From NCBI GenBank assembly GCA_014653365.1, contig JACWEQ010000008.1:1-48770 (forward strand): a DNA stretch of 48,770 nucleotides. Direction: 5' to 3'. Position 1 is the stretch's first letter; the number at the start of each line of letters is the position of its first letter. Made by a program: the position numbers and the translations under genes. The stretch is from Pelagibacterales bacterium SAG-MED49 (GTDB lineage Bacteria; Pseudomonadota; Alphaproteobacteria; Pelagibacterales; Pelagibacteraceae). Positions 2,484 to 28,514 of this stretch are shown here, piece by piece. The notes beneath the pieces are model-generated. The model was not told where the DNA came from and did no database searches. It worked only from the letters and a program-made list of their open reading frames with translations.

Positions 2484-3965
2484 TTAATTATTAGAAGCTG
2501 TGCTTAATAAAGATAATTGGGTAATTTTACTGTCTCCAAGCTCATCGATAGGTTTTATGGGATAATCTCCAGTAAAATAATGGTCTGTTAGTTGAGGATA
2601 AGTTTCATTTCTCTTATCAAACCCAACGGCTTTATATAATCCATCAAGTGATAAGAATTTTAATGACTTTGCTCCGATATATTTACAAATCTCATCGTTA
2701 GTTTTATTAGCAGCTAACAATTCTTTTTTAGTTGGAGTGTCAACTCCATAAAAATCTGGATATCTAATTTCAGGGCAGGCTATCTTAACATGCACTTCTT
2801 TTGCACCAGCATCATATAACATTTTAACAATTTTATGTGATGTTGTTCCTCTAACTAATGAGTCGTCAATTAATATAACTCTTTTATCTTTAATAGTTGT
2901 TTGGTTTGCATTTAATTTTAATTTAACTCCTAAGCTTCTAATTTTTTGACTAGGTTCAATAAAAGTTCGTCCAACATAATGATTTCTAATTAATCCATGT
3001 TCATAATTTATTTTTAAATGTTGTGAAAATCCCAGTGCCGCAGCATTACCGCTGTCCGGAACAGGTACCACTATATCAGCATCAACATCATTTTCTTTAG
3101 CAAGCTCTATACCTATATTTTTTCTATGCTCGTATGCAGTTTTATTGTCAAGTATACTGTCAGGTCTTGCAAAGTAGATGTACTCAAAAACACAAGGCCT
3201 AACTTTTTTAGGGGGGAAGGGTTTAATACTCGTTAGTTCATCGTTTTCAATTAAAACAATCTCTCCATTTTCAACATCTCTTATAAATTTTGCTCCAATA
3301 ATATCTAACGCACATGTTTCAGAAGCTAATACATAATTTTTTCCTAATTTACCTACCACAAGAGGCCTAATTCCATAAGGGTCTCTTACACCAATCAAAG
3401 AGTTTTGGGTTAACATCACTAGTGCATAACCACCTTGAATTTGAAATATAGCATCTACAACTTTATCAATTGTTTTTGCTCGTTTAGACTTTGCTATTAA
3501 TTGAACAATTGTTTCGGTATCAGAAGTTGTGTAAAAAATAGCTCCATCTTCAACTAATTTATTTCTTAAAGATATTGAGTTAGTTAAATTTCCATTATGA
3601 GCAACACCAATACCTCCAGCGTTTGTATCTGCAAAGAAAGGCTGTATATTTCTTAGGGTGTTTTCACCTGTAGTGCTATATCTATTATGTCCAATTGCGT
3701 AGTTTCCTTTAAGGTTTTTAAGTACTTTTTCTTCATTAAAATTGTCACCAACTAAGCCAAATCTCTTTTCAGAATAATATTTTTCACCATCAAATGTAAC
3801 TATTCCACATCCTTCTTGACCACGATGTTGCAAAGCATGAAGACCTAGAGCTGTTAGTGCAGATGCATCTTTTGCGTTACTTACACCGAATACACCACAT
3901 TCTTCTTTTAGTTTTGGATTAAAGTTCTTCAATTTTTTCTTTAGAATCTTGATATTTTTTTTCAT
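2484..3965 (-). CDS. purF: Amidophosphoribosyltransferase
   Basis: Transfers the amide nitrogen of glutamine to PRPP to make phosphoribosylamine, the committed step of purine synthesis. The N-terminal Ntn glutaminase domain shows EECGVFGV with the probable catalytic Cys at residue 23, then HALQHRGQEG and IGHNRYSTTG. The C-terminal phosphoribosyltransferase domain has the PRPP loop VILIDDSLVRGTTS at 363-376. The 22 residues before Cys23 would be a removable propeptide if the ATG at 3965 is the start. That start overlaps cvpA by 47 bases; a TTG at residue 12 (3932) would shorten the overlap but has no obvious ribosome site. cvpA-purF is a classic pairing. Feedback inhibition by purine nucleotides is known for the family. 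Confidence 0.97.
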   Translation of the reverse strand: MKKNIKILKKKLKNFNPKLKEECGVFGVSNAKDASALTALGLHALQHRGQEGCGIVTFDGEKYYSEKRFGLVGDNFNEEKVLKNLKGNYAIGHNRYSTTGENTLRNIQPFFADTNAGGIGVAHNGNLTNSISLRNKLVEDGAIFYTTSDTETIVQLIAKSKRAKTIDKVVDAIFQIQGGYALVMLTQNSLIGVRDPYGIRPLVVGKLGKNYVLASETCALDIIGAKFIRDVENGEIVLIENDELTSIKPFPPKKVRPCVFEYIYFARPDSILDNKTAYEHRKNIGIELAKENDVDADIVVPVPDSGNAAALGFSQHLKINYEHGLIRNHYVGRTFIEPSQKIRSLGVKLKLNANQTTIKDKRVILIDDSLVRGTTSHKIVKMLYDAGAKEVHVKIACPEIRYPDFYGVDTPTKKELLAANKTNDEICKYIGAKSLKFLSLDGLYKAVGFDKRNETYPQLTDHYFTGDYPIKPIDELGDSKITQLSLLSTASNN

Positions 3966-25057: not shown

Positions 25058-26842
25058 TTGAATAAGTACAGAACTCATAATTGTAACGAATTAAGAAAAA
25101 AAGATTTAGATAAAGATATTTCTATATCTGGATGGATTAACAAAAAACGAGATCATGGAAACTTACTATTTATTGATTTACGTGACAATTACGGAATTAC
25201 TCAATGTATTATTGATAAAGAGAATAAAAATTTTTTAGAGTTAGAAAAAACTCAATTAGAAACTGTTATAAAAATACAAGGAAAAGTAATTAATCGTTCA
25301 AATGAAACCATTAATAAAGATATTGAAACAGGTGAAATAGAAGTTGTAATAAATAAATTTGAAATATTAGGAACCTGTAAAGAGCTGCCAATGCCTGTTT
25401 TTAGCGATCAAGAATATGCAGAAGAAATCAGATTAAAATATAGATTTTTAGATTTAAGAAGAAAAAAGATTCATGAAAATATAATTCTAAGATCTAAAGT
25501 AATTTCATATATCAGGAATGAAATGACAAAAATAGGTTTTTTGGAATTTCAGACTCCAATTTTAACTTCTTCAAGTCCAGAAGGAGCAAGAGATTTTCTT
25601 GTTCCAAGTAGATTGAATCCTGGTAAATTTTATGCATTACCACAAGCTCCTCAACAATTTAAACAGCTAATTATGGTATCTGGATTTGATAAATATTTTC
25701 AAATAGCTCCATGCTTTAGAGACGAAGATGCAAGAGCTGATAGAAGTCCAGGTGAATTTTATCAATTAGATTTAGAAATGTCATTTGTTGAACAAGAGGA
25801 TGTTTTTAATGTAGTTGAAAAATTATTAGTCAATACTTTTAAAAAATTTTCAAATAAGAAGTTAATGTATGATCAGTTTCCGAAAATTTCATATGTTGAT
25901 GCAATGTTGAAATATGGAAGTGACAAACCTGATTTAAGAAACCCTCTAGTAATAAACGATATTACAAATGTATTTGAACGTGATGATGTGTCATTTGAAA
26001 TTTTTAAAAAACTTGTAAAATCTGGCTCTAAAGTAAGATGTATTTCTACTAAAAATACAAAAGACAAACCAAGAAGTTTTTTTGACAATATTGATAAATG
26101 GGCCAAAGAACAAGGTGCTTCAGGATTAGCATATTTTACTTTTGAAGAAGAGGGAGAACTTTTCGCAAAAGGTCCGATAGGAAAATTTTTTTCCAAAGAA
26201 GCTTTAGTAGAAATAATGAAAAAAACAAATTCTGAAGTAGGTGATAGTATTTTTATGGCTTGTGGAAAACAAAATGATTTAGAAAAAATTACTGCACAAG
26301 CTAGAGATAAAATTGCTAAAGATTTAGATTTAATAGATGATGATATCTTCGCTTTTTGTTGGATTATTGATTACCCAATGTTTGAAAGAAATGAAATAAC
26401 AAATAAGATTGAATTTAGTCATAATCCTTTTTCAATGCCTCAAGGTGATTTAACTGATAAAGACTTAGAAAATCCCCTAGATATATTGGCTTATCAGTAT
26501 GACATTGTTTGTAATGGTATTGAGCTATCTTCTGGAGCAATAAGAAATCACAAACCAGAACTTATGTATAAGCTATTTTCAATTGCTGGTTATGATAAAA
26601 ACCAAGTCGATGAAAAATTTAGTGGAATGATCAACGCCTTAAGTTTTGGAGCGCCTCCACATGGAGGAATTGCTCCTGGTATTGATAGAATTGTAATGTT
26701 ATTAGCAAATGAAAAAAATATTAGAGAAGTTACTATGTTTCCAATGAATCAAAATGCTCAAGATTTGATGATGAAAGCACCATCTGAGGTTACTGAAGAG
26801 CAATTAAAAGAACTTAATCTTGCTTTAAAAACTAAAAAATAA
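25058..26842 (+). CDS. aspS: Aspartyl-tRNA synthetase
   Basis: Class II synthetase charging tRNA-Asp (and probably tRNA-Asn if no AsnRS exists). The N-terminal OB fold includes GWINKKRDHGNLLFIDLRD; the catalytic domain has SSPEGARDFLVPSR, QAPQQFKQL, motif 2 FRDEDARADRSPGEFYQLD and motif 3 GIAPGIDRIVML; the bacterial GAD insert lies between. At 594 residues it is full length. The start is a TTG at 25058, directly after the hdaA stop, with GGGAGA at 25048-25053 as a well-placed ribosome site; there is no suitable ATG nearby. Confidence 0.97.
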   Translation: MNKYRTHNCNELRKKDLDKDISISGWINKKRDHGNLLFIDLRDNYGITQCIIDKENKNFLELEKTQLETVIKIQGKVINRSNETINKDIETGEIEVVINKFEILGTCKELPMPVFSDQEYAEEIRLKYRFLDLRRKKIHENIILRSKVISYIRNEMTKIGFLEFQTPILTSSSPEGARDFLVPSRLNPGKFYALPQAPQQFKQLIMVSGFDKYFQIAPCFRDEDARADRSPGEFYQLDLEMSFVEQEDVFNVVEKLLVNTFKKFSNKKLMYDQFPKISYVDAMLKYGSDKPDLRNPLVINDITNVFERDDVSFEIFKKLVKSGSKVRCISTKNTKDKPRSFFDNIDKWAKEQGASGLAYFTFEEEGELFAKGPIGKFFSKEALVEIMKKTNSEVGDSIFMACGKQNDLEKITAQARDKIAKDLDLIDDDIFAFCWIIDYPMFERNEITNKIEFSHNPFSMPQGDLTDKDLENPLDILAYQYDIVCNGIELSSGAIRNHKPELMYKLFSIAGYDKNQVDEKFSGMINALSFGAPPHGGIAPGIDRIVMLLANEKNIREVTMFPMNQNAQDLMMKAPSEVTEEQLKELNLALKTKK

Positions 26843-26845
26843 AAA

Positions 26846-27670
26846 TTATTTTTTTCCTTTTAAATTTATTTTAACATCAGAGAGATCTACCAGGTTCTTT
26901 TTGTAGTTATTTCTTACAAAACCCTTGCTTGTAATATCTTTTACGATTTTTAATAATTGATTTTGATCTTCAGATCCTTGCTCATCAACTGAATAAGCAT
27001 CATTACCGCCAATTGAAGGAGTATGAGCTAAGTCTTCTCTATTTTGATATGAGATAGCTAGTTCTCTAAAAATATAATCTAAAATCGAACTTGCACTCAA
27101 TATTCTGTCGTTTCCGTGAACTTTTCCTGAAGGTTCAAATTTTGTCCCAACAAAAGCACTAATATACTCATCTAAAGGAACACCATACTGAAGACCAAGA
27201 GACACAGCGATTGCAAAATTATTCATTAAAGCTTTAACTAGTTCGCCCTCTTTACTTGTATCAATAAAGATTTCTCCTATCTTTCCATCTTCATATTCTC
27301 CTGTATGAAGATATACTTTATGATCCCCAATAGTTGCTTTTTGGATGTATCCTTTTCTCCTATCTGGCATTCCAAATCTTCTACCACCTCTTTCTGAAGA
27401 TTTGTTTAAGCTAGCAATAATATTTTCTTTATTTTGTGGTGTTGTTTGATTTGTTTTCGTAACTAAATCAACTTTTTTGTTCTCAATGACTTTGTTGTTA
27501 TTTGGGTCAAGGCTTTTAGTTTTTCGATTATCCAATTTAACATCTAAAACTTCGAATTTACCATCATCTCGTTTTTCAAGGTTTTTAAGCTCAGTTTCAT
27601 TAATATCATCAAGATAATGATTAACTTTAAAAGTACATGTGTAATAAGTCTCAACTAAATATTTTGCCAT
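26846..27670 (-). CDS. Free-standing homologue of the C-terminal part of B12-dependent ribonucleotide reductase (TSCPD-type)
   Basis: A 274-residue protein whose residues 100-217 ([26 protein letters not shown], then [18 protein letters not shown], then [21 protein letters not shown], quoted in pieces) match, from memory, the C-terminal region of alphaproteobacterial NrdJ that contains the TSCPD domain. The catalytic ten-stranded barrel with its active-site cysteines is absent; the only Cys is at residue 12, and the usual terminal CxxC zinc ribbon is also missing. The N-terminal 100 residues are unlike NrdJ. No nrd gene is adjacent. A regulatory or nucleotide-binding role is possible but unproven. 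It stands alone on its strand, with 114 bases upstream. Confidence 0.75.
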
Positions 27671-27784: not shown

Positions 27785-28144
27785 ATGTTGACACTTTTAC
27801 AAAAAATTTTCACCTGGTGGAATCAAGACACCTTTGGAACAAGATTGAAAACTATTTTCTATGGAAAGTTAGTTGGAAGAGATGAATCAGGTAACAAATA
27901 TTATGAAAGTAAAAATGGTAAAAGGTGGGTTATTTATGCAAGCTCTATTGATGCATCAAAAATACCAGTTGAATGGTATTCATGGATGCATTTTACGCCT
28001 AATAAAATTGAAAAAAATCACAATTTTGAAAAATATGATTGGCAAAAACCTCACCAATCTAATTTAACTGGTACAGAAGAGGCTTATTATCCAAATAAAA
28101 ATAAAGATGGTATCAAAAAAAAATATTCTAGCTGGAAAGAATAA
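27785..28144 (+). CDS. NDUFA12-like accessory subunit of complex I
   Basis: A 119-residue homologue of the mitochondrial 17.2-kDa (NDUFA12) subunit of NADH:ubiquinone oxidoreductase. Matching segments are TFGTRLKTIFYGKLVGRDESGNKYY, KRWVIYASSIDASKIPVEWYSWMHF and LTGTEEAYYPNK, read in order; the W-H/WMHF and TGT-x-x-AY blocks are characteristic. Alphaproteobacteria are known to carry this supernumerary subunit away from the nuo operon. It overlaps the following DUF2155 gene by 38 bases, a conserved neighbour. No nuo genes are in the window. Confidence 0.93.
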   Translation: MLTLLQKIFTWWNQDTFGTRLKTIFYGKLVGRDESGNKYYESKNGKRWVIYASSIDASKIPVEWYSWMHFTPNKIEKNHNFEKYDWQKPHQSNLTGTEEAYYPNKNKDGIKKKYSSWKE

Positions 28145-28514
28145 ATTAAATTTTTCTCTTTTATATTTTTTAGTTTATTTTTTTTTATTTAATACTTCAT
28201 TTGCACAAAATAAAACTGAAGGCAATTTTACAGACTTAAAGATTCTAGACAAAATAAGCTCTAAGAATACTCTAATTAAATTAAAAAATGGAGAATTGAT
28301 TAAATTTAAAGATTTATCTATTAGAAGTTTAAAATGCAAAAATTCAGAGTTTGACGATAATCCAGAAATTACTGCTTATATACAGGTTAAAGATCTAACA
28401 GATGAAAATAATAACGAGGTATTTGTATTTAATGGGTGGATATTTTCCTCAAGTCCATCAATAACTCCTTTTGATCATCCAGTATACGATGTTTGGCTTG
28501 TAAATTGTTATTAG
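28107..28514 (+). CDS. DUF2155 exported protein
   Basis: A 135-residue protein with an N-terminal signal sequence (hydrophobic 17-32, cleavage likely after SFA at 33) and the DUF2155 core: LKNGELIKFKDLSI, an internal Cys in SLKCKNSE, and the strongly conserved ending FNGWIFSSSPS then HPVYDVWLVNC. The two cysteines could form a disulfide in the periplasm. Its start lies 38 bases inside the NDUFA12-like gene, so the two are probably translated from one transcript. Function is unknown; its stop shares TTAG with the accC stop on the other strand. Confidence 0.88.
   Translation: MVSKKNILAGKNKLNFSLLYFLVYFFLFNTSFAQNKTEGNFTDLKILDKISSKNTLIKLKNGELIKFKDLSIRSLKCKNSEFDDNPEITAYIQVKDLTDENNNEVFVFNGWIFSSSPSITPFDHPVYDVWLVNCY

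Follow-up and report, generated by a model that had tools for sequence, protein, structure and literature searches.

A freestanding NrdJ tail under strong purifying selection in Pelagibacteraceae, an in-place remnant of a class II ribonucleotide reductase

The window, by which we mean the whole stretch of 48,770 nucleotides analysed here, carries a gene for a freestanding ribonucleotide reductase tail between aspS and NDUFA12 (Table 1). Pfam places a TSCPD domain (PF12637) at residues 110–205 of its product (E = 3.6e-13; 50.1 bits against a curated cut-off of 22.8). The NCBIfam model of the vitamin B12-dependent reductase (NF005736, 1222 positions) aligns through its positions 941–1133 with residues 68–263 (E = 1.5e-65), scoring 221.5 bits where the full-length cut-off is 1737. 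Homology with the alphaproteobacterial NrdJ tail spans about 120 amino acids, and both matches agree with the initial annotation, which had likened residues 100–217 to the TSCPD-containing C-terminus of NrdJ and had the range right. The module opens at the stretch R[13 protein letters not shown], and its start is basic (RRKGYIQK). A PDB sequence search with the whole protein returned four matches at E = 0.34–0.76, which we took as chance.

Table 1. The orphan tail gene, its regions and the genes that border its slot, in window positions.
Feature	Position	Strand	Remarks
Orphan NrdJ tail, whole gene	26846..27670	(-)	274 aa + stop, start ATG
N-terminal domain, family-specific, residues 1-52	27515..27670	(-)	median ω 0.050; carries sole cysteine Cys12
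Variable linker, residues 53-97	27380..27514	(-)	median ω 0.34; mean identity 0.39; low pLDDT
TSCPD (IscU-like) module, residues 98-217	27020..27379	(-)	PF12637, NF005736; median ω 0.015; alignment
C-terminal segment, residues 218-274	26849..27019	(-)	matches the NrdJ region that precedes the zinc ribbon; median ω 0.109
aspS, convergent neighbour, one slot border	25058..26842	(+)	NF001750 E 6.5e-244
NDUFA12, divergent neighbour, other slot border	27785..28144	(+)	PF05071 E 3.8e-22
DUF2155 protein, in conserved neighbourhood	28107..28514	(+)	PF09923 E 2.6e-26

The window genome belongs to family f1, taken as Pelagibacteraceae, and f159 is the sister family in its order; the hosts are probably very common ocean bacteria. 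Pfam found neither a catalytic barrel domain in the window protein nor the class II N-terminal domain (PF08471), the latter being present in f159 NrdJ, and alignment with NrdJ tails shows no zinc ribbon. Cys12 is the only cysteine, as it is in all 56 f1 proteins compared, so the protein has neither the active-site cysteine pair nor a zinc ribbon. The loss of barrel, active-site cysteines and ribbon that the initial annotation described is thereby borne out. Judged from the sequence, catalysis and dithiol electron delivery by this protein are excluded.

The gene is present in 52 of the 61 genomes of the genus, including all 10 that are at least 90% complete, so its occurrence is more than chance. 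TSCPD is found in 137 of 147 genomes of the order. Within f1, 90 of 94 genomes carry the tail, in ORFs of 269–307 aa; within f159, TSCPD occurs in 47 of 53 genomes, 43 of them with ORFs of 1180–1218 aa and four with short ones (315, 343, 810 and 908 aa). Selection was estimated by the Nei–Gojobori method for the window gene against 57 relatives, with 27 to 47 usable pairs (dS < 2) per region. Median ω by region (Table 1) runs from 0.015 in the TSCPD module to 0.34 in the linker; dS is high, which makes individual ω values rough, and the contrast between regions is large. No internal stops occur in the within-genus matches listed. These comparisons indicate that the orphan tail is under strong purifying selection.

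In the window and at a second f1 locus (L078), the gene order is aspS – tail – NDUFA12 – DUF2155 – accC – accB – aroQ, with accC, accB, and aroQ identified by sight. Two f159 loci (L093 and L094) carry a full NrdJ of ~1200 aa in exactly the slot of the f1 tail. Outside the two families of the order, the slot was compared at ten full-NrdJ loci: NDUFA12, DUF2155, and AspS all lie nearby at L095 and L100 (other families), DUF2155 and AspS at L101, and DUF2155 alone of the three at L099 and L102, while none of them is near NrdJ at L096, L097, L098, L103, and L104. From these counts, the aspS–NDUFA12–DUF2155 slot of NrdJ is common, not universal. The gene order and alignments show the window protein to be an in-place remnant of NrdJ that lost the barrel and zinc ribbon, kept the TSCPD module, and gained a 52-residue N-terminal domain. 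The full NrdJ in the same slot of the sister family supports the earlier suggestion of a module detached from a catalytic NrdJ. A fusion to a catalytic NrdJ in a related genome, which had been named as grounds for abandoning that suggestion, does exist; as the ancestral state, however, it favors detachment.

The sole PF02867 match in the window genome (89% complete) is a class I NrdA (645 aa) that lies beside NrdB (346 aa) on another contig, and the search for a full NrdJ and for nrdA/nrdB that the initial annotation had recommended thus yielded an adjacent class I pair and no NrdJ. Among 22 f1 genomes searched with PF02867, 21 have an ORF of class I size (646–669 aa), none has one of NrdJ size, and one gave no match. 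The same search in eight f159 genomes found only a 1196–1203-aa ORF in six and no match in two. NrdB is present in all six f1 genomes searched for it and was found in neither of two f159 genomes.

The same retention is seen in a second marine order, represented here by the single family f9. TSCPD occurs in 27 of its 32 genomes, in 25 ORFs of 270–301 aa and two shorter ones, and no NrdJ-sized TSCPD ORF was found among the 27. Named records with the tail are AG-892-K07, AG-337-B08, MED657, AG-896-A16, and AG-895-B20 (cut). At two f9 loci (L076 and L077), the tail is divergent to NDUFA12, followed by DUF2155, AccC, AccB, and AroQ (the last three by sight); AspS was not found within 18 kb of either. 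The only large-subunit candidate in each of two f9 genomes searched is a 620-aa ORF, and NrdB was found in all four searched. The f9 tails have a ribbon with four cysteines at the Zn-ligand positions, and both redox-pair cysteines are absent in 19 of 19. As separate observations, two short ORFs that resemble the MlaD type by sight lie between NDUFA12 and DUF2155 at these loci (L076:7472-8370 and L077:9680-10578) and are not so placed in the window, and one f9 genome (G493), which is bigger than its relatives and 4% contaminated, has three NrdB-type matches.

A further order, called Caulobacterales-type from where L209 and L221 fall in the tree, carries the tail in 111 of 120 genomes. Its ORFs measure ~750–1075 aa in f64, f146, f160, and most of f161, 1196–1356 aa in f162, and 1236–1250 aa in three f161 genomes; a handful of ORFs fall short of these lengths or are split (344, 574, 695, and 1117/194 aa). 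An eroded barrel joined to a nearly unchanged tail was found in Maricaulis salignorans (L221), Brevundimonas AAP58 (L209, cut), and L284–L286. The motifs ACFIQS, NPCSE, CNLAS, and PTGT are gone in all 21 aligned eroded rows and present in all seven intact rows; this alignment leaves out L323 and L094, whose sequences mismatch the pattern, and the 21 eroded rows represent about 20 organisms, as L332 and L221, equal in length and end, are seemingly the same protein. Mean pairwise identity is 0.88 in the tail and 0.24 in the barrel among eroded proteins (n = 210), 0.83 and 0.64 among intact ones (n = 21), and 0.84 and 0.21 between eroded and intact (n = 147). In a Pfam search, the barrel is strong in f159 NrdJ and missing from both L284 and L221. 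Long flanks are available for 21 eroded loci: NDUFA12 and DUF2155 lie near the gene in 20, AspS as well in 15 of these, and L286 has none of the three. NrdB was found in all 21 genomes with an eroded NrdJ and in all nine tail-less genomes of the order. Such NrdJ pseudoenzymes are widespread in this order at the same locus (L221, L284, L285, L286, and L318–L335). CCNA_01966, treated as the NrdJ of Caulobacter, has a place in the B12-use scheme of a 2019 study, in the part of PMC6538847 available to us; judged by its family likeness to the order's eroded proteins, CCNA_01966 is probably an eroded NrdJ itself.

We surveyed ribbon cysteines in 232 distinct tails, a gathered and not a random sample obtained by removing identical tails from 277 loci. 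The six cysteines were assigned after the S. nassauensis NrdJ as described in the accessible part of PMC5704485. All 116 tails with the barrel motif PTGT have six ribbon cysteines. Four cysteines and no redox pair are found in all 34 proteins with a barrel remnant that lacks PTGT and in all 20 tail-only proteins with a readable ribbon. Ribbon-less tails number 59 (58 f1 rows and L253, an f9 sequence with ambiguous bases), and three entries are cut or partial. Across the survey, loss of the catalytic part is accompanied by loss of the redox pair and retention of the TSCPD module; what is selected in the tail is therefore neither electron delivery nor contact with a working barrel.

In a tree of 97 tails over 112 columns, f1, f9, and f159 each fall on one side of a branch with a support of 100. 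Intact NrdJs are the neighbors of f9 in this tree; the Caulobacterales-type forms stand apart, and L286 is separate from those. In the best tree, f1 is not grouped with its sister f159, and constraining the two to one group lowers the log-likelihood by 1.97 units (p = 0.453). In the comparison with NrdJ tails that the initial annotation had called for, the f1 module is distinct and does not group with that of f159, and joining them is not rejected. A single origin of the degenerate forms was considered and not adopted. The best tree separates f1, f9, and the Caulobacterales-type forms, but AU tests over the 112 columns do not reject joining any pair (f1 with f9, p = 0.112; f9 with eroded forms, p = 0.0615; f1 with eroded forms, p = 0.121). 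Several losses are likely because sister groups keep an intact NrdJ in the slot, although the tree leaves this unproven, and the argument for independence comes from synteny and taxonomy, not from the tree.

The 52-residue N-terminal domain, to which the initial annotation did not refer, is highly conserved, has one invariant cysteine and no Pfam entry, and was found in f1 only. The AlphaFold model predicts a strand-helix-strand arrangement for it. A profile of the domain gave 10 matches at E ≤ 0.1 in 289 genomes of the class, and E ≤ 0.001 was reached in three f1 genomes only; the seven matches outside f1 (E = 0.009–0.096) include one that we inspected and recognized by sight as ribosomal protein L4. 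A second profile, run on 40 chosen genomes, matched six, all of them f1. Pfam and PDB sequence searches returned nothing credible, and neither these nor the profiles found an origin for the domain.

Burnim et al. (2022, PMC9669993), in the portion available to us, describe an IscU-like domain in class II NrdJ C-termini, suggest oligomerization, note that most such domains of class II enzymes lack the ligand cysteines, and state that their role is so far unreported. AlphaFold models of the window and f9 proteins are of moderate confidence, with a mean pLDDT of 64.5 and 67.0, respectively; the tail core is higher, and residues 58–98 of the window protein are under 50. For the window model, IscU (1q48; Z = 5.2, rmsd 4.3, 94 aligned residues) scores highest among known structures, with the nucleic-acid-binding PUR-alpha just under it at Z = 4.8, both weak in that Z is below 8. 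For the f9 model, IscU ranks third at Z = 5.4, and a lipoyltransferase is ahead at 6.2; for both models, other folds score nearly the same. Foldseek against the PDB gave no match for the orphan-tail structure at E ≤ 0.001. The weak IscU matches of the models agree with the assignment of Burnim et al. and are no proof of it.

Freestanding tails also occur in phages. A search of IMG/VR by means of the tail profile retrieved 43 loci, whose types were assigned by reading: 24 full NrdJ, one split enzyme (L382, with the tail beside a 732-aa catalytic ORF), 15 freestanding six-cysteine tails, and three short ribbon-less tails. At L349, L351, L353, L355–L359, L361–L363, L367, L368, L370, and L372 (L356 cut), the tail gene lies 2–53 nt behind a DnaB-type helicase gene in 15 of 15 cases, and SSB is downstream in all 12 that reach that far. 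An HTH gene also follows the tail on these contigs, giving the order DnaB – tail – HTH – SSB; the typed neighbors at L351 are DnaB_C (5e-48), SSB (1.5e-32), and YqaJ (1.6e-16). No match to NrdJ, NrdA, or NrdB was obtained in the stretches read of these 15 loci (20.6 kb for the two contigs measuring 41 and 51 kb, ~29 kb for one of 34 kb, and less for the rest), and control loci were found. The 147-aa ribbon-less tail shared by L387 and L388 (5947-6387, same sequence) lies in L387 amid genes for primase, helicase, and DNA polymerase, and the 18.8–18.9 kb around it gave no reductase match. L390 encodes a 176-aa ribbon-less tail (3142-3669) with no catalytic NrdJ in view and no recognized replication neighbor, four proteins having been tested. 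The 15 tails that keep six cysteines may be NrdJb subunits whose catalytic partner is encoded by the host or farther along the contig, beyond the stretch read, and the gene context is only suggestive of a link to replication. Phage replication modules often include genes of nucleotide metabolism.

The tail has very probably kept a function that is independent of both nucleotide reduction and dithiol electron delivery. Starting from the window protein as an in-place remnant under selection, of a kind that has recurred, we tentatively propose that the tail is a docking or oligomerization unit for a partner in replication or dNTP supply; taken as a whole, this statement is possible rather than probable. 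In such a mechanism, the IscU-like module would dock or oligomerize by binding a conserved partner that takes part in DNA replication or in supplying dNTPs, and within NrdJ it would couple the enzyme to that partner. After NrdJ was replaced, the tail would stay as a separate adaptor, to which the N-terminal domain might give a second contact. More generally, and with similar reserve, the NrdJ tail could be bifunctional, serving class II reduction and a non-catalytic job, perhaps at the replication fork. If so, this would explain why the tail is conserved above the barrel and retained alone or on a dead barrel after the switch to class I, and why phage tails with no reductase in view sit between DnaB and SSB. 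Several observations count against the proposal as a whole: the six-cysteine phage tails, the split enzyme L382, the frequency of nucleotide-metabolism genes in phage replication modules, the context of L390, the separation of f1 and f159 in the tree, and the fact that the tail is dispensable in some lineages, as the nine tail-less Caulobacterales-type genomes with NrdB and the 99 of 289 class genomes without TSCPD indicate.

The orphan tail might instead act in trans as a regulatory or oligomerization subunit of the class I NrdAB that replaced NrdJ, which we consider somewhat unlikely. NrdB accompanies the degenerate forms in every f1, f9, and eroded-NrdJ genome searched, though it would be needed there anyway; NrdA and NrdB of the window genome have no ATP-cone detectable by Pfam; and the C-terminal domain of S. 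nassauensis NrdJ is required for dATP/dGTP-induced tetramers, according to the part of PMC5704485 at hand. Tail-less genomes that also have NrdB, and freestanding phage tails with no NrdA or NrdB match nearby, argue against such a subunit. It is quite unlikely that the module binds nucleic acid or nucleotides in some other housekeeping role with no tie to replication or a reductase: the basic start of the module and the rank of PUR-alpha would fit binding, but the structure-comparison tool itself rates any Z under 8 as weak.

Other readings meet stronger objections. P. aeruginosa NrdJb is likewise a tail encoded by a separate gene; it works with NrdJa and mediates disulfide exchange, as described in the accessible part of PMC4520616. 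A similar role in passing electrons to a reductase is highly improbable for the orphan tail, however, since the f1 proteins have a single cysteine that lies outside the tail, a search of the 89%-complete genome turned up neither NrdJa nor any other catalytic NrdJ chain, and the redox pair is missing from the f9 proteins and every eroded NrdJ row read; the absent cysteine pair rules out electron delivery. An iron–sulfur scaffold like IscU, which the top match of the window model and the IscU-like assignment of class II C-termini might bring to mind, is equally hard to credit given that residues 13–274 contain no cysteine and that ligand cysteines are missing from most such class II domains in the account of Burnim et al. 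(PMC9669993). A decaying relic without function can be given almost no credence: the source enzyme was indeed lost, but the ω of the TSCPD module, near-universal presence in small genomes, and the intact reading frames of the matches listed contradict decay.

What goes beyond the initial annotation is that the tail arose in place and is under strong selection, that tail-only and dead-barrel forms lacking the redox pair recur, and that phages carry NrdJ tails in replication cassettes. We recognized no description of a SAR11 orphan NrdJ tail or of an eroded NrdJ in the portions of the literature available to us. With the NrdJ tail defined by NF005736 and PF12637, the window protein shares TSCPD homology and, through the sister family, a genomic slot; it differs from NrdJ in having a new N-terminal domain and no barrel, AdoCbl-enzyme N-terminal domain, zinc ribbon, or redox cysteines. 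It corresponds to the same NrdJ region as the IscU-like class II domain and matches IscU weakly in structure, but that domain is part of an enzyme, and section 2.4 of Burnim et al. (PMC9669993) does not describe a freestanding or dead-enzyme form. The data point to a catalysis-independent function of the class II reductase tail, and organisms that have the tail but no working enzyme would allow this function to be tested apart from nucleotide reduction. They also carry a warning, as tail-only and eroded genes are easily annotated as B12-dependent reductases. TSCPD outside a reductase is also seen in a small freestanding protein at L079:8827-9210 (also L016; PF12637, E = 5.1e-22), but this protein is of a different kind, being short and cysteine-containing.
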